Assembly: GCF_004765805.1 (NCBI RefSeq)
Contig: NZ_SBIU01000004.1
Location: 248,001 to 312,000, forward strand
Direction of reading: 5' to 3'
Length of the DNA stretch: 64,000 nt
DNA from: Halorussus halobius
Lineage (GTDB): Archaea > Halobacteriota > Halobacteria > Halobacteriales > Haladaptataceae
Positions 831-32,431 of this stretch are shown piece after piece (within the stretch, counting starts at the first letter, position 1; every line of letters starts with the position of its first letter). The notes under the pieces are model-generated. The model ran no database searches and had not been told where the DNA came from. It saw only the letters and a list, made by a program, of their open reading frames with translations. The translations under genes were made by a program, and so were the position numbers.

Positions 831-2063
831 ATGGTACGCAGACGCCAGTTGCTCGCGGGTACCGCAGGTATCGTCGCGGCCGGACTCGCCGGCTGTACCG
901 GTAGTGACGGGAGTTCGACGAGTACGACCGAAGCGACCACGGAGACGGCCACCGACACGGCCGCGCCGGAGACGACCGACGCCGAGACGACCACGGACGA
1001 GGCGTCCGAAACCGAGACGACCACGGACGAGCCCACGCCGTACACGGTCGAGATGGAGCCCAACGACCCGTACACGTTCGAGGAGGTCCCGGAGACGTAC
1101 GGCGTGGGCACGAGCCCCTTCATCGACATGGGGATGGCGCTCGGCATCCACCCGACGGCGACCACCGGCCTCGAGCGCGCCCCGCTCAAGTTCTACGACC
1201 TCCTCGACCTCGGGTTCGACGAGAGCCGAATCACCAAGATCGCCAGCGACGCCGAGTCCGGCTACGACAAGGAGAACTTCTACGCCGCCGACGCCGACGT
1301 CTGGCTCATCTCCCGGGACAACATCAGTCGCTACGTCAGCTGGGACGACGCCGACTTCGAGGACGTCGAATCACAGACCGGCCCGTTCCTCGGGACGACT
1401 CTCCGATTCGCCCCCCAGTCGGCCGTCCAGGACGAGCCGAACCCGTACACGATGTACGAGGCCTTCGAGAAGGTCGCGAAAATCTTCCAGCGCCAACAAC
1501 AGTTCCAAGCCTGGAAGTCGCTCCACGACGACCTCATGAACACCATCGAGGACGGGCTCCCGCCGGAGGACGAACGCCCCACTGTCGCCGCCATCTGGCG
1601 GGGCGTCAGCCCCGACTCCGGCCAGTTCCGCATCGCGCCCCTGCACCGCCTCGGCAACAACACGAAGTCGTACTACCGCCTCGGCATGCAGGACGCCTTC
1701 GAGGGCCAGTACCCGGACGGCCCGGTCGGCTACGAGGAACTGCTCCGCGTGGACCCGGATTACATCGGCGCGGTCGGCGCGCTCACCTCGACCACCCACG
1801 AGGAGTTCGTGAACACTACTGTCGAGCCGTTCGAGGCCAACGAGAACGGCCAGCAGCTCAGCGCCGTCCAGAACGGCAACGTCATCCGGAGCGGCGGCCA
1901 GTACATGGGTCCCATCGTCGACATGTTCTCGACCGAGGCCGTCGCCAAGCAGGTCTATCCCGACGAGTTCGGCGAGTGGCCCGGTCCCGTCGGTGACGTT
2001 CCGGAGGGCGAGCAGCTCTTCGACCGCCAGCGCCTCCTCGACGTCGTCGCCGGCGACATATAG
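831..2063 (+). CDS. ABC transporter substrate-binding lipoprotein (iron-siderophore/cobalamin type)
   Basis: This 410-residue protein has a Tat lipoprotein signal: RRR near residues 3-5, a hydrophobic stretch, and LAGC with the lipidated Cys at 22. A Thr/Glu-rich linker (about residues 25-70), typical of haloarchaeal surface lipoproteins, leads into a periplasmic-binding-like domain of the FecB/BtuF kind (for example VWLISRDNISRYVSW and a late VDPDYIGAVGAL segment). It would capture a ferric chelate or corrinoid outside the membrane and hand it to the FecCD permease encoded 5 nt downstream. The ATG at 831 directly follows a DtxR-like palindrome, so transcription probably yields a leaderless or nearly leaderless mRNA under metal control. 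The substrate cannot be decided from sequence alone; the operator favours iron. Confidence 0.8.
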   Translation: MVRRRQLLAGTAGIVAAGLAGCTGSDGSSTSTTEATTETATDTAAPETTDAETTTDEASETETTTDEPTPYTVEMEPNDPYTFEEVPETYGVGTSPFIDMGMALGIHPTATTGLERAPLKFYDLLDLGFDESRITKIASDAESGYDKENFYAADADVWLISRDNISRYVSWDDADFEDVESQTGPFLGTTLRFAPQSAVQDEPNPYTMYEAFEKVAKIFQRQQQFQAWKSLHDDLMNTIEDGLPPEDERPTVAAIWRGVSPDSGQFRIAPLHRLGNNTKSYYRLGMQDAFEGQYPDGPVGYEELLRVDPDYIGAVGALTSTTHEEFVNTTVEPFEANENGQQLSAVQNGNVIRSGGQYMGPIVDMFSTEAVAKQVYPDEFGEWPGPVGDVPEGEQLFDRQRLLDVVAGDI

Positions 2064-2068
2064 GGACG

Positions 2069-3181
2069 ATGTCAGGATTTCTCGACCAACTCGCGGACCG
2101 ACGAGCCGCGGGCAGCGACTGGTACGCCAACTCGAAGCTCGCGGGCGTCGCGCTCGGGAGTATCGCGGTGTTGTTCGGCGCGACACTCCTGCAGGTGAGC
2201 TTCGGCGCGTACCCGCTGACCCTCGGCGAAGCCTGGGGCGCGGTCTTCAACCCCGCGGTCGTGTTCAGCGCGGAGGCCTGGCGGGCGTTCCTGCTCGGCG
2301 GCGACATCCCCGAGTGGTTCACCCAGCAACAGCACATCGTCTGGAACATCCGGCTACCGCGCATCCTCGTCGGCGTCCTCGTCGGCGCGAACCTCGCGGT
2401 CTCGGGCGCTATCTTCCAGATCATCACCCGGAACGAGCTCGCGAGCCCCTACATCCTCGGCGTCAGCGACGGGGCGGGCCTCGTCGTGCTCGTCGTCCTG
2501 ACGTTCTTCTCGGGGCTGGTCCCGCTCGTGCCGGTGCTGGCGGCGCTCGGCGGCGGCATCGCGTTCCTGCTGGTGTACGTCATCGCGTGGAAGAACGGGA
2601 CCAGTCCCGTCCGCCTCGTGCTGGCCGGCGTCATCGTCGGGACCGTCTTCGGCTCGGTCCAGCGGGCGCTGTTTTTCTTCATCGACGACCTCGGGACGGT
2701 GATGTCCGCGCAGGCGTGGCTCTCCGGGTCGCTGCTCAACACCGACTGGGCACAGGTCCGCATCGCGTTACCGTTCACCCTGCTGGCGATGGCCCTCGCG
2801 TTCCTCGTGACCCGCGAACTCGACGTGCTGGTGCTGGGCGAGGAGACCGCCAAGTCGCTCGGGATGCCGGTCGAGAAGGTCCGCTTCGCGGTCGCGGGCA
2901 TCGCGGTGCTCTCGACGGCCGCGGCCATCGCGGTCGCGGGCCTCATCGGCTTCGTCGGCCTCATCGTGCCACACATGGTCCGCAACGTCGTCGGCAGCGA
3001 CTCCCACCGGCTCCTGGTCGGCTGTCTGTTCCTCGGCCCGGCGCTGCTCGTCGGGGCCGACGTCGGCGCGCGCCTCGCGCTGAGCCCGATACAGCTGCCG
3101 GTCGGCATCATCACCGGGCTCGTCGGCGGGCCGTACTTCCTGTATCTGATGCGCCAGACCGAAGACATGGGTGAGGTCTGA
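2069..3181 (+). CDS. FecCD-family ABC importer permease
   Basis: This 370-residue polytopic membrane protein belongs to the FecCD/BtuC family. It has about nine to ten hydrophobic segments, an early NIRLPRILVGVLVGANLAVS block and a late GLIGFVGLIVPHMVRNVVGS block; the latter is the conserved coupling region that contacts the ATPase. It forms the channel of the importer made with the binding lipoprotein upstream and the ATPase downstream. The start is 5 nt after the preceding stop, and its own TGA overlaps the ATG of the ATPase by one base (TGATG at 3179-3183), so the three genes form one operon. Length is slightly above the usual 330-350 residues because of an extended N-terminus. Confidence 0.9.
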   Translation: MSGFLDQLADRRAAGSDWYANSKLAGVALGSIAVLFGATLLQVSFGAYPLTLGEAWGAVFNPAVVFSAEAWRAFLLGGDIPEWFTQQQHIVWNIRLPRILVGVLVGANLAVSGAIFQIITRNELASPYILGVSDGAGLVVLVVLTFFSGLVPLVPVLAALGGGIAFLLVYVIAWKNGTSPVRLVLAGVIVGTVFGSVQRALFFFIDDLGTVMSAQAWLSGSLLNTDWAQVRIALPFTLLAMALAFLVTRELDVLVLGEETAKSLGMPVEKVRFAVAGIAVLSTAAAIAVAGLIGFVGLIVPHMVRNVVGSDSHRLLVGCLFLGPALLVGADVGARLALSPIQLPVGIITGLVGGPYFLYLMRQTEDMGEV

Positions 3182-11215: not shown

Positions 11216-12478
11216 TCACCCGCCCAGCGGAACCCCGCCGAAGATGACCAGCGCGACGACCCAGTAGGCCACGTAGAGGCCGCCCAACAGCAGGCCGTGC
11301 CACCGCTTCACGCGGCCCTCGTAAAAGAAGTACGCCGCCAGCGCGGTCACGACGACGACCGCCGGGAGGTGAAACGTCAGCACCGAGTTGGAGATTTCGA
11401 GGTCGCTCAGCAGCGTGATGACGCCCACGTTCCCGGTGACCGAGAACAGCACGCTCCCGACGACGTTTCCGACCCCGATTTCGGGGACGCCCCGGCGAAC
11501 CGGTTCGAGCGTGAGCATCACGTCCTCGAACGTGAGTATCAGGGTCAGGACGGTCGCGCCGAAGACGGTTCCGTCGACGCCGAACCCCTCGACGACCACC
11601 TCCGACCCGGCCTCCAGCAGCATCGACGCGACGACGACGCCGACGAGCGCGAGGACGGCCAGCACGAGCCAGAGCCACCCCGACGCGGGCCTGCCGGCGA
11701 CGACGCGGTCCTCGGGGATGTCGGCAACCGGAGCCGAGGCCGTCCCGCCGTCGGTCTCCCTCGCGGTCGAGTCGCCCCCGACGACCGCGCCGCCGTCCGA
11801 GCGGAGTCGCTTCCCGAGTTCGGTGTTCCGGAACACGGGCACGTCCCGGCGTCGCTCGCGGACCAGAACGTAGCCGAACGTCAGCGCGAAGAAGCCGATG
11901 AGCGCGAGTCCGTGGACGGCGGTCAGCGTCCCGACGAGGACGAACGGGACGAGTATCAGAGGTCCGAGCGCGAACAGCGCGACGTAGTCGGTCGGCAGGT
12001 CGACCGGAAACGGGCGGACGACGGCGGCCAGCGCGAGCGTGACGCCGATTATGGCGAGTCCAGTGCCGAGCGCCGTCCCGAGCGCGGCCCCTTCGAGGTC
12101 GCCCGCCGAGAGGACCACCGCGAGGACGGTGTCGTCGAACTCGAACCCGGTGAACAGGATGGCCAGCGAGAACAGCGACACCTTCAGTCCGAGCGCGGCC
12201 CGCGTGAGGTAGCTGATGAGTTTCTCGGCGCAGGCGGTCAGCAAGAGCGCGCCCGCGACGAGGACCAGCACCGCGCCGAGGAGTCCCTGTCCCTCGACGA
12301 AGCCTTCGAGCGCGCCCTCGACGCCGCCCTCGCCTTCTTCGGCTTCGTTGCTCCCCTCGGCTCCGGAATCTCCCCCGGCCGCGTCCTGTGCGAGCGCCGG
12401 CGCGACCGGCACCGCGACCAGTGCCAAGACCAGCGCCACGACCAGCGCCGTCCCGGCGAGCGTCCGCCCACGTGTCAT
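11216..12478 (-). CDS. CaCA-superfamily sodium/calcium antiporter-like membrane protein
   Basis: 420 residues with an N-terminal cleavable Sec-type signal (residues 1-30, ending ALAQD), an acidic Ser/Glu-rich stretch, then about ten membrane segments in two halves. Each half contains an alpha-repeat-like block: LFSLAILFTGFEFDDTVLAV near residue 105, and ATVLTLILTFEDVMLTLEPV in the second half with VGNVVGSVLFSVTGNVGVI. This is the two-fold architecture of cation/Ca2+ exchangers. The usual GTSxPE motifs are replaced by acidic variants (FEFDD, FEDVM), so ion specificity may be unusual. A charged cytoplasmic loop separates the halves. Transport of a divalent cation in exchange for Na+ or H+ is the family expectation. 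Confidence 0.75.
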   Translation of the reverse strand: MTRGRTLAGTALVVALVLALVAVPVAPALAQDAAGGDSGAEGSNEAEEGEGGVEGALEGFVEGQGLLGAVLVLVAGALLLTACAEKLISYLTRAALGLKVSLFSLAILFTGFEFDDTVLAVVLSAGDLEGAALGTALGTGLAIIGVTLALAAVVRPFPVDLPTDYVALFALGPLILVPFVLVGTLTAVHGLALIGFFALTFGYVLVRERRRDVPVFRNTELGKRLRSDGGAVVGGDSTARETDGGTASAPVADIPEDRVVAGRPASGWLWLVLAVLALVGVVVASMLLEAGSEVVVEGFGVDGTVFGATVLTLILTFEDVMLTLEPVRRGVPEIGVGNVVGSVLFSVTGNVGVITLLSDLEISNSVLTFHLPAVVVVTALAAYFFYEGRVKRWHGLLLGGLYVAYWVVALVIFGGVPLGG

Positions 12479-19259: not shown

Positions 19260-20342
19260 TCACGCGTCGGGTTCGGGGTCGAATATCTCGGGGTCCTCCT
19301 CGCCCTCGGCGGCGATGACCGCCATACAGCCCTTCCGGGCGACCCGGCTGAGCGCGTGGTCGACCAGCTTGACCGCGCCCGGAACCGGGAACTCCATCGT
19401 GGCGACGGTCGTGGTGCCGGGCGCGACCGGCGTGGTCTCGACGTGCTTCTGGGTGGCCGATTCGAACGACCCCCTCGGGTAGAGTTCCTTCCACACGTTC
19501 CCGATGGGGTGGAAGCTGCTGGTGAGGTTCGGGCCGCCGGTGACGAAGTACACCCGTGCGGTGTCGCCCGTCTCGACGGTCATCGGACCGTACCCGTCGG
19601 GGGTGAGCGCGTACTTCTCGCCGTTCATCACGACGTAGCTGGGCTCCTCGCGGGGCATCGCCTTCATGTCGAACTGGTGGTGGCCCGTCTCGCCCGCGCG
19701 CTTGTCGGTGTAGAGTTCGTGCTGGCCGAGGTAGAACTCGTGGTCGACCTCGGGCAGGCCCTCCTCGGGCTCGACGACGATGGTGCCGAACATCCCCGCC
19801 GAGATGTGCATGTCCATGTTCGGGACCGCACAGTGGTAGATGAACGCGCCGGGGTAGGTCGCCTTGAACGACAACTGCTCGGTGTTGCCCGGCGCGACGG
19901 TCGTCGCCTCCGCGCCGCCGCCCGGACCGTAACAGGCGTGGAAGTCGACGTTGTGGGGCAGGTCGTTCCCGTCGGGGTTCTCGAAGGTCAGGTTCACGGT
20001 GTCGCCCCGCCGGACCCGGACCATCGGCCCGGGGACCCGCCCGTTGAACGTCATGTAGTTGAACGTCACGCCGTCCTCGACCTCGGCCGTGACCTCCTCG
20101 GCGCGGAGCGTCACGTCGACCTCCCGCGGCTCGTCGCGGTCGATGGGGTCGGGCACGTCGGTCGGGTCGGCGGCCACGCGGTCGGCCGTGATCTCTTTGC
20201 TCTGGTTCATGGCTTGCTCGGTCGTCTTGCGGGCCGTCTCGCTGGTCGCTTGGGGGGCGGACTGGGACGAGCACCCGGCCAGCGCCGCCGCGCCGCCCAC
20301 GCCGATACCTTGCAGGACCGTCCGTCGGTTCGTTCGGGGCAT
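19260..20342 (-). CDS. nirK: Copper-containing nitrite reductase
   Basis: This 360-residue exported multicopper enzyme reduces nitrite to nitric oxide in denitrification. N-terminal NRRTVLQG and LAGC (Cys 24) indicate a Tat lipoprotein. Type 1 copper ligands are His130, Cys171, His179 and Met184 (YHCAVPNMDMHISAGM block). Type 2 ligands are His135 (NVDFH), His170 and a late His near 278 (SSFHPIG). The catalytic Asp133 is also present. It is followed by no cotranscribed gene on its strand, but the genes upstream on both strands (cupins, DUF2249, halocyanin) look functionally linked. Two palindromes upstream (20388-20406 and 20423-20434) suggest redox or oxygen control. Confidence 0.93.
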   Translation of the reverse strand: MPRTNRRTVLQGIGVGGAAALAGCSSQSAPQATSETARKTTEQAMNQSKEITADRVAADPTDVPDPIDRDEPREVDVTLRAEEVTAEVEDGVTFNYMTFNGRVPGPMVRVRRGDTVNLTFENPDGNDLPHNVDFHACYGPGGGAEATTVAPGNTEQLSFKATYPGAFIYHCAVPNMDMHISAGMFGTIVVEPEEGLPEVDHEFYLGQHELYTDKRAGETGHHQFDMKAMPREEPSYVVMNGEKYALTPDGYGPMTVETGDTARVYFVTGGPNLTSSFHPIGNVWKELYPRGSFESATQKHVETTPVAPGTTTVATMEFPVPGAVKLVDHALSRVARKGCMAVIAAEGEEDPEIFDPEPDA

Positions 20343-20787
20343 TGGTGGTCACCTCACGGTTACAGGTAGACCCTCACCCACCTTCAACCGAGAATACGAT
20401 TCTCGGGCGGTAGGAAGGCTTACGAACGTGTTCGCGGCATTCTCAATCCGCGAGAACGGACGGGCGGCGAGGCGAACGTGGTCGGGTGCGCTCGGCAGCG
20501 GCGTCGAAAGCGGGGCGACCGACGCCGGCGACCGCACGAGCTCGATGCCACAGACCACGGAGCACGCTCGATGCCACAGCGGGCTCGATGCGCAGACTGG
20601 ACGTGTCGCGCGCGCACGAGCGAAGCGCCACAGCGCGGCGGAGCGCGGTGCTGGTCGGGTGCAGGGAAGTTGCGATGCAGGGCGGTCCGGGGCGTACCGC
20701 ACCCCCGACAGCAATCGCGACCGCCAGCCCGCACTGGGACCGCACGGTACCGCGGGACGAGACGTCGCTGCGTCGCTCCGCCTCGAC
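20343..20787. promoter_or_regulatory. nirK upstream region and gene-free gap
   Basis: This 445-nt gap holds two candidate operators for nirK: CCGAGAAT-ACG-ATTCTCGG at 20388-20406 and CGAACGTGTTCG at 20423-20434. Further right, GCTCGATGC words repeat three times (about 20537-20594; twice as GCTCGATGCCACA), then GC-rich sequence without a convincing gene runs up to the cupin stop at 20788. Confidence 0.6.
20423..20434. promoter_or_regulatory. CGAAC-N2-GTTCG palindrome, nirK copy
   Basis: CGAACGTGTTCG, a perfect 12-bp palindrome, lies about 81 nt upstream of the nirK start. Closely related copies occur at 21390, 21841, 22136 and 22198. The motif recalls inverted repeats described for denitrification promoters in Haloferax (NarO); the exact published spacing I cannot confirm. 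Confidence 0.6.
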
Positions 20788-21099
20788 TCACTCCCCGTCC
20801 GACCGGGGGGCCAACACCAGCAGCGCGGTGCTGTCGGCCTCCGCCTTCGGCGACACCTCGTCTCGGCCGTCGAACCGGAGCAGGTCGCCCGGTTCGAGGA
20901 CGTTCGACTCGCCGTCGACGCGCACGTCGAGGCGGCCCGAGACCAGATACACCACGATTTCGCGCTCGGGGTGTCGATGGGCCGGCACCTCCTCGCCCGC
21001 CTCGAGCGCGAGTCGGACCGTCTTGGGCTCCGACCCGGGGAACGCCACCTCGCGGGGCGTCACGGTCAACTCGTCGAGCGCGGCGGTCTCGACCGTCAT
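20788..21099 (-). CDS. Small cupin protein
   Basis: This 103-residue single-domain cupin has a first motif near GEEVPAHRHPEREIVVYLVSGRL (His-x-His and Glu metal ligands) and a second weaker motif (LEPGDLLRFDGRDEVSPKAE). It is the second gene of a pair: it begins 22 nt after the stop of the DUF2249 gene (21122-21349). The pair is probably driven from the palindrome at 21390. Role unknown; a metal-binding sensor or small-molecule enzyme in nitrite/NO metabolism is inferred from context only. Confidence 0.8.
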   Translation of the reverse strand: MTVETAALDELTVTPREVAFPGSEPKTVRLALEAGEEVPAHRHPEREIVVYLVSGRLDVRVDGESNVLEPGDLLRFDGRDEVSPKAEADSTALLVLAPRSDGE

Positions 21100-21121
21100 C
21101 GCTGGGGGGAGTTTCTCGAAG

Positions 21122-21349
21122 TCATTTCTTGGGGAATCGCGCGACGAACGTCTGGTCGCCCTCGCGCTCGACCTCGTACGCGTCGGCGTCGAACGACTCG
21201 ACCTCGGCCTGCATCTCGTAGAACAGCGGCTTCGGCTCGTGGTCGTTGACTATCTCCAGCACCTCGCCGCTGTCCATCTCCGCGAAGGTGTCGTGTATCT
21301 TCGGGTGGCGCTCCGGCGGCGGAATCTCGCGGACGTCTAGGGTTGGCAT
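21122..21349 (-). CDS. DUF2249 domain protein (first copy)
   Basis: A 75-residue protein from the ATG at 21349 (a GTG at 21355 is an alternative). It matches the DUF2249 pattern: PTLDVREIPPPERHPKIHD, MDSGEVLEIVNDHEPKPLFY and a C-terminal beta strand FVARFPKK, the compact SirA-like fold. DUF2249 proteins cluster with nitric oxide, hemerythrin and denitrification genes in many prokaryotes, but the biochemical role is unknown. It heads a pair with the cupin at 20788 and lies 41 nt from a CGAAGATGTTCG palindrome. Confidence 0.8.
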   Translation of the reverse strand: MPTLDVREIPPPERHPKIHDTFAEMDSGEVLEIVNDHEPKPLFYEMQAEVESFDADAYEVEREGDQTFVARFPKK

Positions 21350-21389
21350 GCACACGAGGATAGCCGTCGGTCGGCCTTCGGATTCGTCC

Positions 21390-21401
21390 CGAAGATGTTC
21401 G
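21390..21401. promoter_or_regulatory. CGAAC-N2-GTTCG-like palindrome, DUF2249/cupin copy
   Basis: CGAAGATGTTCG (one mismatch to the palindrome) lies 41 nt upstream of the DUF2249 ATG at 21349, directly upstream of where BRE/TATA would sit. The spacing matches the copies at 21841 and 22136. Confidence 0.5.
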
Positions 21402-21421
21402 GCATCCTGTCGGTTGGCCGT

Positions 21422-21802
21422 TCAATCGTCCGCGCGCGGGTCGAATTCCCCTTTCTTCAGCCCCTCGCGCACGGGGTCGTGTTCCGCGTCGGTCGGGGGC
21501 GGCGCGGTTACGAGCGTGGCTTCGAGTCGCTCGTCGCCGGCCTTCACGCCGCGCTCGTCGCCCGCCGGGACGACCACCACGTCGTCGGGTTCGACCGCGC
21601 GTTCGTCGTCGCCGTCGCGGACGACGCCCGAGCCCCGCCGGACCGTGATGGCGACGTCGCTGTCGGGCGCGTGGACCGGGATGAACTGGCCGGGCTCGAA
21701 GTAGCCCAGTACCACCTTCATCCGGTCGCTCCGGAAGGTCGACTGGGCCGAGAATCGCTCGTCGTCGTACTCGCGCTCGTCGTCGAAGTCTGTCGCGACC
21801 AT
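21422..21802 (-). CDS. Cupin protein (second copy)
   Basis: A 126-residue cupin. The metal-site region reads GYFEPGQFIPVHAPDSDVAITVRRGSG, with only one clear His, so the metal site may be degenerate. VEPDDVVVVPAGDERGVKAG forms the second motif. The C-terminus is acidic, ending EFDPRADD. It is divergent in sequence from the cupin at 20788. It has its own CGAACGTGTTCG palindrome 39 nt upstream, suggesting coregulation with nirK. Exact role unknown. Confidence 0.75.
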   Translation of the reverse strand: MVATDFDDEREYDDERFSAQSTFRSDRMKVVLGYFEPGQFIPVHAPDSDVAITVRRGSGVVRDGDDERAVEPDDVVVVPAGDERGVKAGDERLEATLVTAPPPTDAEHDPVREGLKKGEFDPRADD

Positions 21803-21840
21803 GTGGGAGACGACGGGCGGCGCGTCCGTCGCCGGTTCCC

Positions 21841-21852
21841 CGAACGTGTTCG
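21841..21852. promoter_or_regulatory. CGAAC-N2-GTTCG palindrome, second cupin copy
   Basis: CGAACGTGTTCG, identical to the nirK copy, lies 39 nt upstream of the cupin start at 21802. Confidence 0.6.
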
Positions 21853-21881
21853 CCCACCACGCCGGTCACCGGGCCTGGGCG

Positions 21882-22097
21882 TCACCGCGGTTCGATCTCG
21901 ACCCGCCACTCGTCGTCGGCCACCTGCTCGGCGTCGTGGTCGAACCCCCGGTCGTCGAGCACCGCGTACAGCGGTTCGGGCTCGAAGCTGTTGACGAGGA
22001 CCAGCGTGTCGTCGTCCCCGAGGTCGCCCAGCGCGTCCACGATCTGGTCGAACGGTCCGCCGTCTACCTCGCGGGCGTCGAGTTCGCGAGTGGTCAC
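21882..22097 (-). CDS. DUF2249 domain protein (second copy)
   Basis: A 71-residue protein using the GTG at 22097 (reads TTRELDAREVDGGPFDQIVD). DUF2249 features are LDAREVDGG, DTLVLVNSFEPEPLYAVLDD and a C-terminal EWRVEIEPR strand. The longer open frame upstream is not coding. The GTG start is favoured because a CGAACGTGTTCG palindrome lies exactly 39 nt before it, the same distance as for the neighbouring cupin. It is a paralogue of the protein at 21122; role unknown. Confidence 0.75.
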   Translation of the reverse strand: MTTRELDAREVDGGPFDQIVDALGDLGDDDTLVLVNSFEPEPLYAVLDDRGFDHDAEQVADDEWRVEIEPR

Positions 22098-22135
22098 GTT
22101 CGTACGTCCGGGACCGACTCGCCTGTCGATTCTGC

Positions 22136-22147
22136 CGAACGTGTTCG
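22136..22147. promoter_or_regulatory. CGAAC-N2-GTTCG palindrome, second DUF2249 copy
   Basis: CGAACGTGTTCG lies 39 nt upstream of the GTG at 22097. It is also 132 nt from the divergent halocyanin start. Confidence 0.6.
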
Positions 22148-22197
22148 CGGGGTGGGACCGGCACGCGCCGCTCGCACCGGGGCGTCGTTCGGCCGGC

Positions 22198-22209
22198 CGA
22201 ACAGGTTCG
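22198..22209. promoter_or_regulatory. CGAAC-N2-GTTCG palindrome, halocyanin copy
   Basis: CGAACAGGTTCG lies 43 nt upstream of an ATG at 22252 and 70 nt upstream of the preferred halocyanin ATG at 22279. The arms are perfect; only the two central bases differ from the other copies. Confidence 0.55.
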
Positions 22210-22278
22210 GACCCCGTTTTCACCGCCCGGGAATCGAAGACAGCGCCATTTATGAACGCCCCGAAGCCGAGAACGACG

Positions 22279-22791
22279 ATGACCGACGAAACTCTCACCC
22301 GGCGGACGGCACTGAAGGCGATGGCTGTGGGCGCGGCGAGCGTGGCGCTCGCGGGCTGTTCGAGCAGCGGCGGCTCGGGCGGCGACGACGAATCGAACGG
22401 CGACGGCTCGGGCGACGAGTCGAACGGCGACTCGGGCGGGGACTCGACCGACTTCGGCGGCTGGTTCGACGACGTCGACAACTTCGACGGCGTGGTCGAC
22501 GAGACCGGCTCCGACGAGGTCACGGTCGACGTCGGCGCGCAGGGCAACGGCGGCAACTACGCGTTCTCCCCGGCCGCGGTGTCGGTCTCGACCGGGACGA
22601 CCGTGGTCTGGGAGTGGACCGGACAGGGTAGCCTCCACAACGTCGTAGCCGAGGACGGCTCGTTCGAGAGCGAGCAGACCCAGGAGGAGGGGTTCACGTT
22701 CGAGCACACGTTCGAGGAGACCGGCACGTACGAGTACGTCTGCGTCCCCCACGAGGCGATGGGGATGAAGGGCGCGATAGTCGTGGAGTAG
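22279..22791 (+). CDS. Halocyanin (blue copper lipoprotein)
   Basis: 170 residues. A Tat lipoprotein signal (TRRTALK, then LAGC with Cys at 27) is followed by a Gly/Asp/Ser linker and a plastocyanin-like domain. Type 1 copper ligands are visible as LHNV (His), YVCVPHEAMGMKG (Cys, His, Met). It is a small membrane-attached electron carrier, the natural electron donor for a haloarchaeal NirK. An in-frame ATG at 22252 would add nine residues and would sit 43 nt from the palindrome; I prefer 22279 because it gives a normal Tat n-region. The radical SAM gene starts 7 nt downstream, implying an operon. Confidence 0.9.
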   Translation: MTDETLTRRTALKAMAVGAASVALAGCSSSGGSGGDDESNGDGSGDESNGDSGGDSTDFGGWFDDVDNFDGVVDETGSDEVTVDVGAQGNGGNYAFSPAAVSVSTGTTVVWEWTGQGSLHNVVAEDGSFESEQTQEEGFTFEHTFEETGTYEYVCVPHEAMGMKGAIVVE

Positions 22792-22797
22792 GTCGCC

Positions 22798-23898
22798 ATG
22801 GCGAGTTCACCGCGTCGTTCGGCCGGCCCGCCCCGGCAGGTCGACACCGACGAGCGACCGCTGGTGCTGATCTGGGAGCTCACGCAGGCCTGCGAGTTGA
22901 CCTGCGAGCACTGCCGGGCCGACGCCCAGCCCGACCGGCATCCGGACGAGCTCACGACGGCGGCGGCCGAGCGCCTGCTCGAGGACGTCCGGGAGTTCGG
23001 CGAAGGCCAACTGGTCGTGTTCTCGGGCGGCGACCCGCTCAAGCGCGACGACGCCGTCCACCTCGTGGAGTACGGCACCGACCTCGGGCTGAACGTCACC
23101 ATGACGCCGAGCGGGACCACCTCGCTGACCCCCGACGCGGTGGCCGACCTCGCGGACGCCGGCCTCCGGCGCATGGCGCTCAGCCTCGACGGGGCGACCG
23201 CCGAGCGCCACGACGCCTTCCGGGGCGAGGCCGGCAGCTTCGCCGACACGATGCGGGCCGCGCAGGCCGCCCGCGACGAGGGCGTCCCGCTCCAGGTCAA
23301 CACCACCGTCTGTCGACGGACCGTGCCCGACCTGCCCGAGATCGCCGACCTCGTGGCCGACCTCGGCGCGGTGCTGTGGAGCGTGTTCTTCCTCGTGCCC
23401 GTCGGGCGGGGCGCGGCGCTCGACCCCCTCTCGCCCCACCGGGCCGAGCGCGTGATGGAGTGGCTCGTCGACCGGAGCGACGAGTGGCCCTTCGGCGTGA
23501 AGACCACGGAAGCGCCCCACTACCGGCGGGTCGCGGTCCAGCGGGCCGACGAGCCGCCGGGCCGCCAGATGGGCATCACGGCGGGCGACGGCTTCGCGTT
23601 CGTGAGCCACGTCGGCGACGTGTACCCCTCGGGATTCCTGCCCGAGTCGGCCGGGAACGTGCGCGAGGAGAGCGTGGTCGAGCTCTATCGGAACTCGGCG
23701 CTGTTCGAGTCGCTCCGGGACCCCGACCGCCTGAACGGCAAGTGCGGCGCGTGCCCCTACCGGACGATGTGTGGCGGCAGTCGGTCGAGAGCCTACGCGG
23801 CCACCGGCGACCCGCTCGGGAGCGACCCGCTGTGCTCGTTCGTCCCCGAGAAGTACGACGGGCCGCTCCCGTGGGGCGAGGAGTCGGCCGGTGACTGA
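22798..23898 (+). CDS. Radical SAM/SPASM protein (TIGR04053-like)
   Basis: 366 residues. The radical SAM cluster is CELTCEHC (Cys 32, 36, 39) inside LIWELTQACELTCEHCRADA. A GGDPLKR segment, ALSLDG and WSVFFLVPVGRG follow, and a C-terminal SPASM-type region carries CGACPYRTMCGG and a later Cys (PLCSF) for an auxiliary Fe-S cluster. The overall pattern matches the TIGR04053 group, related to AhbD/NirJ-type porphyrin enzymes. It is cotranscribed with halocyanin (7-nt gap). A role in cofactor or haem maturation for nitrite/NO metabolism is inference; the substrate is unknown. Confidence 0.85.
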   Translation: MASSPRRSAGPPRQVDTDERPLVLIWELTQACELTCEHCRADAQPDRHPDELTTAAAERLLEDVREFGEGQLVVFSGGDPLKRDDAVHLVEYGTDLGLNVTMTPSGTTSLTPDAVADLADAGLRRMALSLDGATAERHDAFRGEAGSFADTMRAAQAARDEGVPLQVNTTVCRRTVPDLPEIADLVADLGAVLWSVFFLVPVGRGAALDPLSPHRAERVMEWLVDRSDEWPFGVKTTEAPHYRRVAVQRADEPPGRQMGITAGDGFAFVSHVGDVYPSGFLPESAGNVREESVVELYRNSALFESLRDPDRLNGKCGACPYRTMCGGSRSRAYAATGDPLGSDPLCSFVPEKYDGPLPWGEESAGD

Positions 23899-26195: not shown

Positions 26196-26526
26196 CTCTT
26201 TTGTCACGAGTACCCTACGAGCGCCTCGTGCGCTCGCAACAGACGCGAGTGACAAACAACGACGCAAATGGATTTGAACGCCTGCCAGTCGCAGCCCGCG
26301 TAGTGAGCGGAGCGAACGAGCAGGACCGTCTGGCTCCGGTTCAAATCCCATGCCGCCCGCTTTCTCCTGCGACCACTACGGCGAGCAGTTCATCTGCTCG
26401 CCAAATCCGCGAGCGGCGAATCTCGACGCAAATGGATTTGAGCGCCTGTTAGACGCAGTCCGCGCAGTGAGCGACCGGCCGGAGTGAAGGACGGACTGTT
26501 CCGGACTCGAATCCCATCCGTCCACT
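26196..26526. repeat. Two tandem tRNA-tail repeat units behind tRNA-Arg
   Basis: The tRNA 3' end (24 nt, GGTTCAAATCCC through CCGCCCGCT) at 26174-26197 is repeated exactly at 26338-26361, and in decayed form at 26503-26526 (GGACTCGAATCCCAT...). The spacings are 164 and 165 nt. The intervening units share CGACGCAAATGGATTTGA and GCAG(C/T)CCGCG(T/C)AGTGAGCG. Each unit carries an inverted partner of the T arm (GGATTTGAACGCC in the first), so it can fold as a long hairpin. No gene or integrase is present between the copies. Confidence 0.75.
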
Positions 26527-27294
26527 GCCTTCGCGGCTTTTCTGGTTCTGCGACTCTGGAAGCGGCTCGTGTCGAACTCGGACTCGACCTGTTTCAATGC
26601 CTTCGCGGCTTTTCTGGGTTCTGCGACTTACAGAACCCCCTTGATGACGCCGACCCGGCTACCCAGTTTCAATGCCTTCTCGGCTTTTCTGGGTTCTGCG
26701 ACTTCAACAACGTGCTCGGGCGTGTCGTCGACGACCGCGTTTCAATGCCTTCTCGGCTTTTCTGGGTTCTGCGACTTCGACCCGATGGAAGACGAATTCG
26801 TGGGCGGAACGGTTTCAATGCCTTCTCGGCTTTTCTGGGTTCTGCGACCAGGCGCGCACGGCGGCCTTTCGCTCTCGTCGGACCTGTTTCAATGCCTTCT
26901 CGGCTTTTCTGGGTTCTGCGACGGTCTCGGGCTGGAGCGTCGGCCGGTTCTCGTCAATGTTTCAATGCCTTCTCGGCTTTTCTGGGTTCTGCGACCGATG
27001 CACTACGGCGAGGAAAAGTCGCGGAACGACTTGTTTCAATGCCTTCTCGGCTTTTCTGGGTTCTGCGACTTCGAAACTCATAGACCTCGATGACGCCGTC
27101 GACCTGTTTCAATGCCTTCTCGGCTTTTCTGGGTTCTGCGACGCGACCCCCCGGTCGGCGAGGGCGTCGACTACAGTGTCGGTGTTTCAATGCCTTCTCG
27201 GCTTTTCTGGGTTCTGCGACCGTTCCGCGACCTCGGTCTGACCACCGGTCTCATCGAGTTTCAATGCCTTCTCGGCTTTTCTGGGTTCTGCGAC
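26520..27294 (-). CRISPR. CRISPR array 1 (11 repeats, 10 spacers, transcribed leftward)
   Basis: 37-nt repeats start at 26591, 26666, 26739, 26812, 26886, 26959, 27033, 27106, 27184 and 27258, with a degenerate 35-nt copy at 26520. On the crRNA strand the repeat begins GTCGCAGAACCCAGAAAAGC and ends GAAGGCATTGAAAC; the terminal ATTGAAAC is the usual 8-nt crRNA 5' handle, which sets the direction. Spacers are 36-41 nt. The leader is on the right (27295 onward); the decayed end is on the left, next to the tRNA-tail repeat. The nine leader-side repeats have GCCGAGAAGGC; the two distal ones have GCCGCGAAGGC as in array 2. Confidence 0.97.
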
Positions 27295-27405
27295 AGGGGG
27301 TGAAAATCCGGCCACAGCCCCAATAAATGTTTCTGCTGTCGTCTACGCGACGGCCGCGTTCGTGGACCGGCGCCGTACAGGGAATTTAAAAAGGTCCACG
27401 AAGAC
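27295..27405 (-). promoter_or_regulatory. Leader of CRISPR array 1
   Basis: Read leftward, this contains GACCTTTTTAAATT (TATA-like), CTGTACGGC, CCGGTCCACGAAC, TTTATTGG and ATTTTCACCCCCT just before the first repeat. The same words in the same order precede array 2. It occupies the gap between csa3 and the array. Confidence 0.8.
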
Positions 27406-27413
27406 CGTGCTGG

Positions 27414-28058
27414 TCACGCGGTTCGAAGCAGGAGTCGCCCCGTCAGCGTGAGTTCGACCTGCTTGGATTTGCCCGCGTTCGTGGTTCTGACGGCTCCGGC
27501 GTCCGCGAGCTTCGAGACGTGTCGACCGACAGTACTCGTGGCGACGTCGCTGTCGCGGGCCAGCTCCGATATCGACACCGGGCCCTCGACGTTCGCGAGC
27601 GTCCGCAACGTCTTCGTCGTCTCGTCCGGTGGATTCGCGGCGAGGTTCGGCAGCTCCCACTTGCGGACCGAGTGGTCGGTGTCCCGGAAGAACAGCGTCT
27701 CGTCGACCCGGTCGAGGTGCGCGAGCGTCGCCGTCGCGAGCGCGAGGAACACCTCCCGGGCACCGCCGCCGAAGTTGACCACGACCGTCCCGTCGGCCGC
27801 CCGGAGGAGGTCACTACACGCCAGCACCGCGTCGCCGAAGTCGTCGTGGGGAACGCCTTCGGCCGCCAGCGAGACGTCGGGTTCGATCCCGCTCAGGAGG
27901 CGCTCGACGTCGGCCAGCGCCTCCGCCGCGCGCTCGTCGTCGTCGTTGGTCGCCGGCCGGACGACCACGACCTCGTCGCCCCCGTCGATTCCGCGCTTGA
28001 GAATCGGTCGCGTGACCCTGGTTTCGTGGTACCCGAGCGTCGAGACGTACGTTCGCAT
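27414..28058 (-). CDS. csa3: Csa3 family CARF-wHTH CRISPR regulator
   Basis: 214 residues. The N-terminal two-thirds form a Rossmann-like CARF domain: MRTYVSTLGYHETRVTRPIL, then VVVVRP and a VVVNFGGGAREVFLAL strand-loop with the glycine-rich ligand-binding turn. The C-terminal winged helix is at about residues 150-210 (SISELARDSDVATSTVGRHV, then GKSKQVELTLTG). Csa3 proteins regulate adaptation genes and array transcription in response to cyclic oligoadenylate or related ligands. It diverges from the cas operon and its 3' end faces the array 1 leader, 9-15 nt away. It may control either promoter. Confidence 0.88.
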   Translation of the reverse strand: MRTYVSTLGYHETRVTRPILKRGIDGGDEVVVVRPATNDDDERAAEALADVERLLSGIEPDVSLAAEGVPHDDFGDAVLACSDLLRAADGTVVVNFGGGAREVFLALATATLAHLDRVDETLFFRDTDHSVRKWELPNLAANPPDETTKTLRTLANVEGPVSISELARDSDVATSTVGRHVSKLADAGAVRTTNAGKSKQVELTLTGRLLLRTA

Positions 28059-28239
28059 CCAATTCGAGATAGCGCGTACCCCGGAATAATACTACCGTTG
28101 CACTGCGACGCAATCGACGCTCCCGAATGCGAATGTTGCGCCGTCGATCCAATCAGTCACCGGGTTTATCATATCAGCCTGCGAACGAGCGGACGGAGAG
28201 CGCGACAACGAATGCACGACCATCGTTCGCCCCGATAAG

Positions 28240-29073
28240 ATGCGACGCATCACTCTCACCGTCCGGCCCGAGTCGTCGTTTCCGGTCCCGATATCGGACG
28301 GCTACAGCGTCTACAGCGCACTGCTGGCCGCGCTCGACGACGTGGACGGGAGCGTCAGCGAGCGCGTTCACGACTCCCCGCTGGGGAGCCTCCACTGCAG
28401 CGGCCTGCTCGGCGCGTTCGGCGGGAGCGACCGCGACTACCACAAGCGCGTCCGGAGCGACCGCACGTACGAACTGTCGCTGGGCGTCGTCGATTCGGAC
28501 GACGAGGCGGTGTTTCAGGCACTCGTCAGCGCGCTCGTGCTGGAAGGCGACGAACTGGAGTTGACGAACGGGACGCTCCGCGTCGAGCGGTTCGAGAGCG
28601 AGAACGCCGACCACGCCGACCTCGTCTCGCGCGCGAACGACTACGAGGACCCGACCGTCGAGGTGGCGTTTCGCACGCCGACCTGTATCGAAGAGGCCGG
28701 CGACGTGACGACGATGGTCCCCCACAGGCGGGCCGTCTTCGGCTCGCTGCTCGGCAAGTGGAATCGCACTGCGCCCGACGAGTTGGAGTTCGCGCTGGGC
28801 GACGACGACCTGCTGGCCCACGTCGTGGAGAAGCCCGACGCGCGCTCGTTCGGAACCCACAGCGTGCTGGTGAACCGCGTGACCGGCGACGACGGCAACA
28901 GCAAGCCCATCTTCCGGCAGGGGTTCACCGGCGACTGCGCGTACAGCTTCAAGGGTGCGAGCGAGAGCGTTCGGAACGCGGTGACCGCGCTCGCGCTGTT
29001 CGGCGAGTACAGCGGCGTCGGGAGTGCCGTGGCTCGGGGATGTGGGAACGTGGCTGTGGAGGTGACTAAATAA
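28240..29073 (+). CDS. cas6: Cas6 pre-crRNA endoribonuclease
   Basis: 277 residues, first gene of the operon. It has two ferredoxin-like halves and the C-terminal glycine-rich loop FGEYSGVGSAVARGCGNV (about residues 252-271) that defines Cas6. The N-terminal half includes PISDGYSVYSALLAAL, with a conserved Tyr/Ser context, and LHCSGLLG. It cuts repeat RNA leaving the ATTGAAAC handle. The ATG at 28240 follows a TATA-like TTTATCAT at about 28168, and its stop overlaps the next ATG by one base. Base composition is more host-like (higher GC) than the effector genes that follow. Confidence 0.9.
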   Translation: MRRITLTVRPESSFPVPISDGYSVYSALLAALDDVDGSVSERVHDSPLGSLHCSGLLGAFGGSDRDYHKRVRSDRTYELSLGVVDSDDEAVFQALVSALVLEGDELELTNGTLRVERFESENADHADLVSRANDYEDPTVEVAFRTPTCIEEAGDVTTMVPHRRAVFGSLLGKWNRTAPDELEFALGDDDLLAHVVEKPDARSFGTHSVLVNRVTGDDGNSKPIFRQGFTGDCAYSFKGASESVRNAVTALALFGEYSGVGSAVARGCGNVAVEVTK

Positions 29074-31484
29074 TGAACCCAGACGCTGCTCGCAAAGCTC
29101 ACGAATGGCTCGTAAAGGACACAGACCTGTACGAGAACATCATCGATGCGGCGGGCGAGTACGACGCGAAAGTCGACTCGTCGGCCAACTGCTCGCTCGC
29201 AGCACACGTGCTGAACGCCGTGACCGTCGGCGTCAACGCGTTCGTGTTCAACGCGGTCGGCCGCGATGAAGACGTCGTCGACTACGAGGAGGACATCAAG
29301 GTCCTCGCGGCCGCACTCGCGTTACACGACACGAACAAGTACGTCCGAGAGGCGTACGGGTTCGATGCCGACGGAAACACCGCCGAAGCGTTCGAGTATT
29401 ACTTCGACCCGGACGAAAGGAGCGGTGACGACTTCGGCGTCGAGGAATTCCTCGGCGACGGTTACCGTGAGGATCTCCACTATCTGGTGCAACGCACCGA
29501 GACGCGCGAGGATAGCCGCGAGACTCGCGGTATCGATACGGAGTTCCGGGGGTTGGAGCGCTACTGCCGTATCGGCGATCAAGCGGCCTCCGTCGCGCTT
29601 CGAGACGGCATCGACGGCGTGTACGACAAACTTACGACGCACTTCGGTGAGGCGGACGTCCATCTCGTCGAGTTCACGGAACTCGAACAGCCGGTCCTGA
29701 ACGACCTGCTTCTGGGGACGACGAAAGAGATTATCGCTGGTGAGACAGACCGCGAGGCGTGTGGGGTAATAGTCGGAAGCTCACCGGACTCGATTCTCTA
29801 CCTCGGAGATGCTACTGACAGGGCAGCCCTTCGAGACGACGTTGAAGCTCGTCTACCCGAGAAAATCGGCGGGCCGGAGTTCTCGTTCTCGTGCAAACTC
29901 AACTGGAACTCCTTCGACTACGACATTCTCGCGGAGGTCGAGATGGACGTCGATACGAAGGAGGAGATCATCGCCGAGGAGTTTCGCGATCTCCTTGAAC
30001 GTGGATCGGCTGGCGTCGAACCGTTCGAGTACATCCCCGAGGCGTTCGACCAGTACTTCCCCATACTGGCGAAAGCAATCTACGTCGACGGTCGTTCGGA
30101 GTTCGACGACCCCGACGTGCAAGCCGCGTACGACCGAATCGAAGACGAGCAGGGCGTCCAGAAGGTCAAACTCCACTTCGTCGCGCATCTCGCCGAACAC
30201 CACGAAAAGTACGCCGACTTCCTCGAGTCGTTCGCACAAAAGGTTCGTCCGCAACTCCACGACGACCTCGAGCCCGACAGCGACGCGCTCACAACTGTCA
30301 GCGAACGGTTTTTCGAGGGACGGGCCACTCCCGAACTCGGGGGGAAAGAGGAGATGTGCTTCCTCTGTGGCGCGGAGACGGGGACGAAGTATCAGAAAGG
30401 ACTCAGCGGAATCTATCGAACCCAAGAGTACTCCCGTCGAGTGCCACCGCACGCGAAGTACAAATCCATCTGTGAGGTCTGTAATCTGGAGTACGCACTG
30501 CTCGCCGACATCTGCGAGCGAAGCGACGTGAGCACGAACAACGCGCTCGAAGTCGCGTACTTCTACTTCGACGACTTCCTCGGCGACGTCCGCGTGCGCA
30601 GTCGCCGGGCCGGGAACGTCGTACAGGGCGATGCGGACGAACTGGACGACACCGAACTAACGACGAGTCTCGTCGGACCGCAGTACTACCTCCAGCCGGT
30701 CTACGTACGGAACGAGAACCATCGGATGGCGGTTATCCGGCAGGTGATGCAGGCTGCCCAAGACGCCGGGATGAAGGTGGTCGTGGGACGGCCGTTCACG
30801 CGCTTCGAGAGCGCGGACGCCGTCTTCGCGGACGAGGAGGCCACCCGACCGCAAGAACTTCTCGGGCTGGACGAGGCGGAGCGATTCGGTCCGCTCCCCG
30901 ACTTCGTGACGGGCGAGCGTACTGACTCGCATCTCCGTCGCGCGCTCCAGCTGTTCAAAATCATGAGCATGGTCGGACAGGACGCGAACCTGTCCAATCC
31001 GTACATCCACCTCGACCGCGATACGTTCCACAGTATCGCCGACTTTGCAGTCGTCAACCACGACAACGCTACTCGACTTCCGGACCTCCGGGAGTACTTC
31101 GAGAACTACCACGAAGATGCACTCATGGACATGAAAACCGTCGCCGAGCGGGGAATCGACCTGTTCGGCCAGCAGTACGACAGCAAGTACAAGAAGACGA
31201 AAGTGTTCCGCGAGGCGCTGGACGCGTTCCTCAGCGGGATGAACCAACGCATGGACGACGACGAACTCGTCGAGTACGTGGAGAGTCAGGTGTACGCCGC
31301 TGCCGACCGCGAGGACTACGCCGGATACGTGGAGGTCGGGGAAGCCGAAGCGTTCGTCGAGGCCATTCGAGCGTATCTCGACGAGAACGACCTCCTCACC
31401 TTGAAGAAGCTCTCCGACTGGGAAGACGCGCTCGTGAACTCGTACTACTACGCATACGACCAAGCACTTCAGGACCGACAATGA
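29073..31484 (+). CDS. cas10d: Type I-D large subunit Cas10d/Csc3 with HD nuclease domain
   Basis: 803 residues. The N-terminal HD nuclease domain shows His45 (SLAAHVLNAV) and His85-Asp86 (LALHDTNKY), as expected for type I-D, in which HD is fused to Cas10d rather than to Cas3. A zinc knuckle with CFLCG near 429 and CEVC near 468 lies mid-protein, as in Cas10 proteins. I see no GGDD cyclase motif, consistent with the inactive palm of Cas10d. It is the signature I-D subunit, responsible for PAM recognition and DNA degradation within Cascade. It overlaps csc2 by 4 nt (ATGA). Confidence 0.87.
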   Translation: MNPDAARKAHEWLVKDTDLYENIIDAAGEYDAKVDSSANCSLAAHVLNAVTVGVNAFVFNAVGRDEDVVDYEEDIKVLAAALALHDTNKYVREAYGFDADGNTAEAFEYYFDPDERSGDDFGVEEFLGDGYREDLHYLVQRTETREDSRETRGIDTEFRGLERYCRIGDQAASVALRDGIDGVYDKLTTHFGEADVHLVEFTELEQPVLNDLLLGTTKEIIAGETDREACGVIVGSSPDSILYLGDATDRAALRDDVEARLPEKIGGPEFSFSCKLNWNSFDYDILAEVEMDVDTKEEIIAEEFRDLLERGSAGVEPFEYIPEAFDQYFPILAKAIYVDGRSEFDDPDVQAAYDRIEDEQGVQKVKLHFVAHLAEHHEKYADFLESFAQKVRPQLHDDLEPDSDALTTVSERFFEGRATPELGGKEEMCFLCGAETGTKYQKGLSGIYRTQEYSRRVPPHAKYKSICEVCNLEYALLADICERSDVSTNNALEVAYFYFDDFLGDVRVRSRRAGNVVQGDADELDDTELTTSLVGPQYYLQPVYVRNENHRMAVIRQVMQAAQDAGMKVVVGRPFTRFESADAVFADEEATRPQELLGLDEAERFGPLPDFVTGERTDSHLRRALQLFKIMSMVGQDANLSNPYIHLDRDTFHSIADFAVVNHDNATRLPDLREYFENYHEDALMDMKTVAERGIDLFGQQYDSKYKKTKVFREALDAFLSGMNQRMDDDELVEYVESQVYAAADREDYAGYVEVGEAEAFVEAIRAYLDENDLLTLKKLSDWEDALVNSYYYAYDQALQDRQ

Positions 31485-32431
31485 CACTCGACTACCCCGA
31501 CAAAGGACTCGTCGAATCGCACAGCATCTATCGAACCAGGAAGCCGACCGTCACGCTCGTCGTGAAGCGAGATATTACAGAGCCGACGCTGTTCCGGAAC
31601 TCGAATCACGACCGCGCCGAAACGCAGGAGTTCGGCGAGAAACTCCACGCGCAGGTGAACGGGGAGAAATTCACGAGCAAGGAACGCCTCACCGGCCTCG
31701 ACCTGCTCAGACGGCTCGACGAAGACGGGTCTCTCATCCACGGCGAGTACACGTACAACGAGCCCGACGACTTGGACGAATCGCTAAACGTCGGTACGCT
31801 CACGTACGGACTGGCTGGAACTGGCGACCAAGACTTCGCGATCAAGTCCCGGGTCGTAGAGGGCTACACCTACACGACCGAGGAGTACGACTTGATGAAC
31901 AAGGAAACCCGGAACGCCGTCTACGAGACCGGGACGATGCAGGACGACGAACGCGAGCAGTCACAGGCGCTGTTCGACTTCGTGAAGGTCCAGCCCGGAA
32001 ACGACCTCGTTCACTTCATCACGCTGGAAGCGGCGACCGGACCGATGTTGCTGTACACGCTCCACAACGTCCTGAACACCGGGAAGTACGGGGCGCGTGA
32101 GACGCGAACCGGTCGTAACGTTCGTAACGACGTGCTGGGGATCATCCTCGGGGACCACGACACCTCCCTCTCGACTGGAGAGCTACTGATGGAGTACCAC
32201 GGGGAAGACGATAACCTCGAGGAAAGTCTCAATGAGTACGTCGAGGCAGTTCGTCGCGAGGACTGGGACGTGTACGGGACGTTCGACGCTGCCGAGGACG
32301 TCCCGGAATGGTTCGAAGCGCTACGCGCCGTCGCCGCTCGCGAAGTCGACGACGCCGACGAAATTCTACGGGAGGAGTTCACGCGACTGATGGCGGAAGC
32401 GCGCGACAGTTTCGGCTTGACCGATGATTGA
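31481..32431 (+). CDS. csc2: Type I-D Cas7 (Csc2), Cascade backbone
   Basis: 316 residues. The sequence starts YPDKGLVESHSIYRTRKPTV, with TLFRNSNHDRAETQEFGEK and FTSKERLTGLDLLRRL, which match Csc2-type Cas7 rather than the Csh2 type of I-B systems. The centre VKVQPGNDLVHFITLEAATG and LLYTLHNVLNTGKYGARETR are Cas7 fold segments including the conserved thumb region. Multiple copies bind the crRNA along the effector complex. It overlaps Cas10d by 4 nt upstream and Csc1 by 8 nt downstream, so translation is coupled. Confidence 0.87.
   Translation: MTLDYPDKGLVESHSIYRTRKPTVTLVVKRDITEPTLFRNSNHDRAETQEFGEKLHAQVNGEKFTSKERLTGLDLLRRLDEDGSLIHGEYTYNEPDDLDESLNVGTLTYGLAGTGDQDFAIKSRVVEGYTYTTEEYDLMNKETRNAVYETGTMQDDEREQSQALFDFVKVQPGNDLVHFITLEAATGPMLLYTLHNVLNTGKYGARETRTGRNVRNDVLGIILGDHDTSLSTGELLMEYHGEDDNLEESLNEYVEAVRREDWDVYGTFDAAEDVPEWFEALRAVAAREVDDADEILREEFTRLMAEARDSFGLTDD

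Follow-up and report, generated by a model that had tools for sequence, protein, structure and literature searches.

The 64,000-nucleotide (nt) stretch of Halorussus halobius DNA analysed here (assembly GCF_004765805.1, contig NZ_SBIU01000004.1, positions 248,001 to 312,000; hereafter the window) carries nirK beside genes of the cupin and DUF2249 families and a halocyanin gene, and it raises the question of what these genes share upstream of their starts and which protein reads it. The initial annotation had described five palindromes of the type CGAAC-N2-GTTCG within 1.8 kb and had taken them for one operator joining these genes in a nirK regulon. All five were found exactly where it had placed them (Table 1), and we consider it probable that they are binding sites of a dimeric, short Bat-type (HTH_10) activator of 207 amino acids (aa) that is encoded elsewhere in the genome. 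The window holds five copies of the exact form CGAACNNGTTCG, whereas 100 dinucleotide shuffles gave 0.49 on average and four at most. Four of the exact copies, together with one site carrying a single mismatch, lie inside the 1.8 kb beside nirK, and the fifth (position 11496) is within a called gene. The distances from site to start had been given as 39, 39, 41, 43 and 81 nt; the sites stand, but each count is one too high, and 38, 38, 40, 42 and 80 bases lie between.

The operator is already known: the window palindromes are of a published 12-base type, and in three plasmid records (below) the start distances agree with it where a site is present. In the passages of the published work covered here, the semi-palindrome CGAAYATDKTYG lies upstream of the nar, nirK, nor and nos genes of Haloferax mediterranei, at 319, 79, 66 and 69 nt, respectively, and in 83 promoters of that species, one of them that of a halocyanin gene (Miralles-Robledillo et al. 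2023; PMC10062603). A 2024 transcriptome study counts eight repeats of the motif across the nirK-nor cluster. It also reports that denitrification induces all four DUF2249 genes of H. mediterranei, of which two carry the motif (PMC11218638); this induction, along with the sites found here, supports the notion of an operator common to nirK, halocyanin, cupin and DUF2249 genes. The two systems agree in the 12-base length with two central bases, in the position relative to the nirK and nor starts (nirK at 79 nt there and 80 nt here; nor at 66 nt there and 66 nt for the nitric oxide reductase (NOR)-like genes of three plasmid records, L129, L130 and L131), in the presence of the motif before DUF2249, halocyanin and Bat-type activator genes, and in its repetition in the nirK-nor cluster. 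They differ in that the window nirK copy departs from the CGAAYATDKTYG consensus at one base, and in that a class of sites at 38 nt, the divergent use of one site, and members from the cupin, CGCGG RiPP (ribosomally synthesised and post-translationally modified peptide) and hemG-like families are not in the passages on H. mediterranei.

It is the position of the palindrome, not the bare 12-mer, that is special. The genome of Halorussus halobius holds 45 copies (a reversed-pattern control gave 2), about 1.5 times the approximately 30 expected from the scaled-up shuffle rate of the window, and 30 of the 45 are inside genes as called by a simple purpose-made gene caller. Among the intergenic copies, nine promoters at seven sites have exactly 38 nt between palindrome and start, two of the sites lying between divergent gene pairs. 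Of the 90 directions, nine have an ATG at a gap of 38 nt, whereas the other gaps from 0 to 94 average 0.60 (binomial P 1.5e-8), a count from which the GTG-start promoter at window position 22136 is left out. Across 293 genomes of the order, the pattern palindrome-N38-ATG gave 803 matches on both strands in 245 genomes and the control palindrome-N45-ATG 188 matches in 136, each count including some of the other kind because part of the 38-nt matches are intragenic and because, in some control matches (e.g., in G146), the ATG is the start codon of the regulator gene itself. Measured against background frequency, as the initial annotation had proposed, the operator thus fares unevenly: the 12-mer as such is only modestly enriched and is mostly intragenic, while its fixed distance from start codons is far from chance. 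We give almost no credence to a chance origin of the palindromes from haloarchaeal codon usage. The copies within called genes would suit that idea, but the excess at a fixed distance counts against it for the intergenic set, as do the promoter signatures and the conservation across genera. No mention of the 38-nt rule was found in the literature searched, which comprised passages and sections rather than whole papers or supplements and had most subscription papers outside it. What is new here is therefore the 38-nt class with leaderless features, its divergent use, the pairing with a regulator across the order and the additional members, and not the operator.

The composition of the 38-nt class was derived from 90 unfiltered palindrome-N38-ATG matches in 18 Halorussus genomes. 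There is a G at -38 in 64 of them and a T at -28 in 51; A or T occupies -27 in 74 and -11 in 75, and position -1 is a pyrimidine in 73. A profile of 48 hand-picked rows gave the same picture. The centre of the palindrome is AC, GT or AT in 57 of the 90, a further departure from the H. mediterranei motif. Such a base layout is that of a haloarchaeal leaderless transcript, which begins at the start codon. The 38-nt sites would thus fit leaderless promoters in which the palindrome occupies -50 to -39 and abuts the transcription factor B recognition element (BRE). The initial annotation had read the placement just upstream of BRE and TATA box as that of an activator site, and this is supported by mutation of the same motif in H. 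mediterranei, which significantly lowered the activity of nos (except for a mutation of the last base) and of nor, whereas activity of the nar promoter rose, though not significantly (PMC10062603). A repressor that blocks transcription factor B (TFB) and TATA-binding protein (TBP) and is released under denitrifying conditions could act from a site abutting BRE as well, and in some lineages a second copy overlaps the start of the regulator gene. We nevertheless regard a repressor as improbable, given that the nos and nor mutations in H. mediterranei reduced activity instead of raising it, and that an activator fits better with TATA boxes that are weak and stand at a constant spacing from the site.

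The favoured activator is itself preceded by the palindrome. Among 29 HTH_10 frames in the Halorussus halobius genome, only the 207-aa protein (PF04967 at the C-terminus, residues 150–202; E value 3.4e-20) starts beside an exact palindrome; 19 of the starts were seen directly, and 10 long frames, cut N-terminally at the end of a locus, were judged by comparing genomic places. Two further HTH_10 frames are about 2 kb from a palindrome (C4:285440 and C10:7177) and do not have it at their starts. The site at the regulator gene is shared with a divergent DUF2249 gene, with 38 nt on each side. Copies of the regulator are 84% identical in Halorussus salinisoli and 87% identical in H. litoreus. In its closest relatives the palindrome lies within 150 nt in 31 of 33 distinct upstream regions, 30 times in exact form, as compared with 0.4% of shuffles. 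It is located, exact or with one mismatch, precisely 38 nt from the divergent start in 23 of 26 parsed regulator loci (four of the 30 loci are outside this count); most of the divergent partners, which were not scanned individually, resemble the DUF2249 protein at the N-terminus. Two genomes of the same family that have no nirK carry a regulator paralogue with 38 nt on both sides of a palindrome. In one of these two, which has no match to nirK at E 1e-60, the divergent gene that shares the palindrome (L171:1949-2341) was scanned and encodes a HIPIP-like electron carrier. A second copy of the palindrome is found 1 or 5 nt from the regulator start in L069, L065 and L094–L096, which suggests feedback repression.

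The assignment of this protein to the Bat-type family follows from its Haloferax and Halobellus relatives, which have both HTH_10 and BAT domains above cut-off. The BAT domain (PF15915) has no match at E 0.01 in the 207-aa protein itself; among relatives, L129 and L131 match it above cut-off and L130, L080 and L093 below, while L065 and L068 give no match, and the Halorussus proteins in general have a BAT match below cut-off or none. No cysteine is invariant in 19 aligned regulator sequences, which argues against an iron-sulfur sensor bound by cysteines. A search of PDB sequences with the regulator profile returned no match at E 0.1. Structural neighbours in PDB of a model based on five sequences (pLDDT 73.9, pTM 0.57) were rejected as unconvincing, the best having E value 7.8e-4 and TM score 0.22, and Ta1207 (PDB: 5m86) E value 3.5e-3 and TM score 0.43.

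Another conceivable reader is NarO, which in Haloferax volcanii is reportedly an HTH_10-type activator of denitrification genes. Its hallmark is four N-terminal cysteines in the arrangement CxnCxCx7C. The short regulator lacks these four (no invariant cysteine in the alignment of 19), and the arrangement was found in none of the 29 HTH_10 frames of the genome, 10 of them cut N-terminally, so that NarO was discarded as binder of the palindrome here. The alternative that NarO or another HTH_10 protein binds the palindrome, and that the short autoregulated protein is merely one of its targets, has in its favour the abundance of Bat-type proteins (the 29 frames) and the proposal of NarO as activator of the denitrification genes of Hfx volcanii, where a similar motif has been reported (via PMC10062603). 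Against it, H. mediterranei has the motif and lacks NarO, the gene of which otherwise lies upstream of nar (PMC10062603), while nar is undetected in Halorussus halobius (no PF00384 protein), and the operator tracks the presence and gene neighbourhood of the short regulator. We judge this alternative unlikely, and the link to NarO-dependent repeats drawn in the initial annotation was not upheld.

The short Bat-type protein, by comparison, has a counterpart in the literature. According to the sections of the transcriptome study covered, a bacterioopsin activator, E6P09_00735, lies in the H. mediterranei nirK-nor cluster and has been proposed as candidate regulator, while the identity of the protein that binds the motif remains undisclosed (PMC11218638). 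Like the present regulator, E6P09_00735 is a short Bat-type protein with neither PAS nor GAF domain, and has the motif in its promoter. A relative in Haloferax larsenii (52% identical) has HTH_10 and BAT above cut-off and is found among genes for NOR-like, halocyanin, DUF2249 and multicopper oxidase proteins. Judging by family and neighbourhood, E6P09_00735 and the 207-aa protein may be orthologues. In the three plasmid records, the gene tables of which were entered in part, the gap from palindrome to start is 42 nt for the regulator and 66 nt for the NOR-like gene in all three (genes for cbb3-type subunit I being taken as NOR by inference), 67 nt for a multicopper oxidase in two, 80 nt for nirK in one and 38 nt for the CGCGG RiPP gene in one; the RiPP gene of L130 has no nearby site within one mismatch. 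In L057, L129 and L131, a multicopper oxidase gene with its start 67–70 nt from a palindrome has a small HTH gene beside it, the product of which would be a conceivable binder on grounds of adjacency. The distance of its own gene from the palindrome is variable, at 85 nt in L057, 131 nt in L131 and more than 160 nt in L129, and we consider this protein a most improbable candidate.

The pairing of operator and short Bat-type regulator was followed across the 293 genomes, a regulator relative being defined at E 1e-30 and nirK at E 1e-60. Relatives are present in 253 genomes and nirK in 148. In genomes with a relative, the mean number of 38-nt sites is 3.62 with nirK (n=144) and 2.30 without (n=109); in those that lack a relative it is 1.75 with nirK (n=4) and 0.67 without (n=36). 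The corresponding means for the 45-nt control are 0.69, 0.64, 0.25 and 0.47. The 38-nt sites are thus in clear excess mainly where the genome has a relative of the regulator. The name nirK regulon is too narrow, because genomes with a relative and no nirK keep the 38-nt excess, although nirK does share the operator. Regulator and nirK are no more than 15 kb apart in 40 of 97 genomes and no more than 35 kb apart in 54 of 97, these being genomes in which both places are among the matches listed.

Several observations weigh against the regulator being the reader of the palindrome, or limit how far the evidence for it reaches. A palindrome at the regulator gene indicates membership in the regulon, not DNA binding, and two relatives, L068 and L093, have none upstream (up to one mismatch, 150 nt). 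The 33 upstream regions are those of the best-scoring relatives and not a random draw from the 253. Presence is loosely defined, since paralogues also count as relatives at E 1e-30, and the means ignore kinship and completeness, the genomes that lack a relative including small or incomplete ones. Five 38-nt sites occur in G002, a genome that is 86% complete and has no relative, and the four nirK-bearing genomes without a relative average 1.75. Part of the 38-nt matches fall inside genes, among them one of the nine ATG matches in Halorussus halobius (C3:134072). No palindrome was found near nirK in three of 30 nirK loci (up to one mismatch, 200 nt), nor, up to one mismatch, near nirK of Halobellus limi (L131), and the effect of mutating the nirK promoter of H. 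mediterranei was not significant (PMC10062603).

The nirK promoters form a class of their own. In 27 of 30 loci, the 200 nt upstream of nirK contain a palindrome with no more than one mismatch, 16 times in exact form, and in 25 of the 30 the gap to the nirK ATG is 78–84 nt. A column profile of the 27 promoters has a peak of TATA-like bases 36–40 nt past the palindrome and, between palindrome and TATA, a conserved TTC...GAGAA block (loci L141–L170). In the window, the corresponding interval holds a second, perfect inverted repeat, CCGAGAATACGATTCTCGG, the GAGAA half of which is kept in nirK promoters; the block may be the binding site of a second regulator. The additional one-mismatch copy farther upstream, CGAACGTGGTCG, has an equivalent at about the same place in only one of 29 other nirK loci (L145, at 131 nt). 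A plasmid search with the nirK leader gave no match.

Site positions, conservation, promoter composition and co-occurrence together point to the following mechanism. A dimer of the regulator, bound to a palindrome centred at about -44.5, would touch the BRE/TATA complex of leaderless promoters, in which the start codon would open the transcript with its first base. It would recruit TFB and TBP to weak TATA boxes, in response to a signal that may be low oxygen or nitrogen oxides. A single palindrome could act on a divergent pair of genes, at 38 nt from each. The palindrome some 38–46 nt upstream of the regulator gene would raise the expression of the regulator itself, and in some lineages, including Halorussus halobius, the second copy, 1 or 5 nt from the start, would probably switch expression off once much of the protein has built up. 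The nirK gene would employ a more distal site, at about 80 nt, with the other conserved block between site and TATA box.

The putative regulon extends to cupins, the CGCGG RiPP, the TIGR04053 radical-SAM gene and the hemG-like gene; the TIGR assignments in Table 1 are NCBIfam matches. The TIGR04053 gene, 6 nt downstream of the halocyanin gene, is probably in one operon with it, as judged from the gap. The initial annotation had placed the halocyanin start 43 nt from its palindrome; an ATG at 42 nt does exist, but four other Halorussus loci (L064, L065, L066 and L130) have a gap of 69 nt, which in the window leads to the ATG preceding a twin-arginine signal, and within Halorussus the 69-nt start is likely the better one. 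In Hfx larsenii (L129), the annotated halocyanin start is 42 nt from a one-mismatch site. The DUF2249 gene served by the imperfect window palindrome at 21390 has an exact copy at 38 nt in Halorussus ruber (L066). A fused DUF2249-cupin protein of 179 aa, with a palindrome 40 nt upstream, is encoded at L173:2611-3147, where the genome gave no match to nirK at E 1e-60, and the fusion suggests that the two domains work together. Weak matches to TusA sulfurtransferase, below cut-off, were obtained for two DUF2249 proteins (L129:10592-10852 and L046:8720-8992). Of the divergent L013 pair, the 225-aa protein has no Pfam match and the 460-aa membrane protein is weakly COX1-like, below the Pfam cut-off.

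Denitrification as a whole probably does not account for the regulon in this organism. In contrast to H. mediterranei, which has nar and nos genes with the motif, the genome of Halorussus halobius has no detected nar (no PF00384 molybdopterin oxidoreductase) or nos (four weak NosZ matches, none above cut-off), and none of its five COX1 matches is at an exact palindrome. Control of nar, nor and nos was accordingly set aside as the role of the regulon in this genome. With neither PF00384 nor NosZ above cut-off, the organism probably does not carry out full denitrification.

Table 1. Palindromes, genes and 38-nt promoters in the window and elsewhere in the Halorussus halobius genome
Feature	Coordinates	Strand	Remarks
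Palindrome CGAACGTGTTCG	20423..20434	.	Putative nirK operator, 80 nt from nirK ATG
One-mismatch copy CGAACGTGGTCG	20473..20484	.	130 nt from nirK; doubtful
Second inverted repeat CCGAGAATACGATTCTCGG	20388..20406	.	Between nirK and its palindrome; perfect repeat
Imperfect palindrome CGAAGATGTTCG	21390..21401	.	One mismatch; 40 nt from DUF2249 ATG 21349
Palindrome CGAACGTGTTCG	21841..21852	.	38 nt from cupin gene
Palindrome CGAACGTGTTCG	22136..22147	.	38 nt from DUF2249 gene, GTG start
Palindrome CGAACAGGTTCG	22198..22209	.	69 nt from likely halocyanin start; 42 nt from upstream ATG
nirK, copper nitrite reductase	19260..20342	-	TIGR02376, E value 9.5e-132, above cut-off
Cupin, second gene of DUF2249-cupin pair	20788..21099	-	PF07883
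DUF2249 protein, first gene of DUF2249-cupin pair	21122..21349	-	PF10006, E value 6.4e-25
Cupin protein	21422..21802	-	PF07883, E value 1.7e-6, just above cut-off
DUF2249 protein, GTG start	21882..22097	-	PF10006, E value 5e-17
Halocyanin	22279..22791	+	TIGR03102, above cut-off
TIGR04053 radical SAM/SPASM protein	22798..23898	+	TIGR04053, E value 3.1e-147, above cut-off
Candidate regulator, short Bat-type (HTH_10) protein, 207 aa	G000:C2:707081-707704 = L046:9081-9704
38-nt promoters in window			Cupin gene and GTG-start DUF2249 gene
38-nt promoters, divergent pair			Candidate regulator gene and DUF2249 gene
38-nt promoter			Protoporphyrinogen-oxidase (hemG-like) gene; TIGR00562, above cut-off
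38-nt promoters, divergent pair	L013:785-1462 and 1551-2933		225-aa protein and 460-aa protein
38-nt promoter			CGCGG RiPP gene; TIGR03995, above cut-off
38-nt promoter			Gene weakly MoaD/ThiS-like

Elsewhere in the window (26480–27330 and 27414–32431), frames rich in the recurring peptide LLGFSGFCD suggest a CRISPR-like repeat array, and the genes after it may be Cas genes. Between contigs C4 and C7 and within C6, matches occur in pairs of equal score and equal frame or gene coordinates (L042/L043, L054/L061 and L035/L036), which suggests duplicated stretches of the assembly.

The operator is real, conserved and of a kind already described, here in a genus outside the published passages and with a sharper spacing rule and a likely regulator. 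On balance, and with less assurance than for the regulator as reader of the palindrome, we favour a broader proposal: that a Bat-type protein, autoregulated, lacking conserved cysteines and represented by relatives in 253 of the 293 genomes, reads the palindrome at -44.5 of leaderless and often divergent genes. The regulon would be older and wider than denitrification, persisting where nirK is absent and, in this organism, where nar and nos are. It would join DUF2249-cupin proteins, the CGCGG RiPP, TIGR04053, electron carriers and heme enzymes, be readable by the palindrome-N38-ATG rule, and have an off switch at the regulator start in some lineages. The pairing of operator and regulator family across the order, taken with the 38-nt rule, would provide a specific candidate for the undisclosed binder of the motif. 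By the same rule, much of the regulon could be listed in any haloarchaeon, and the DUF2249, cupin and CGCGG RiPP genes, families of unknown role, would be placed in a nitrite or redox response.

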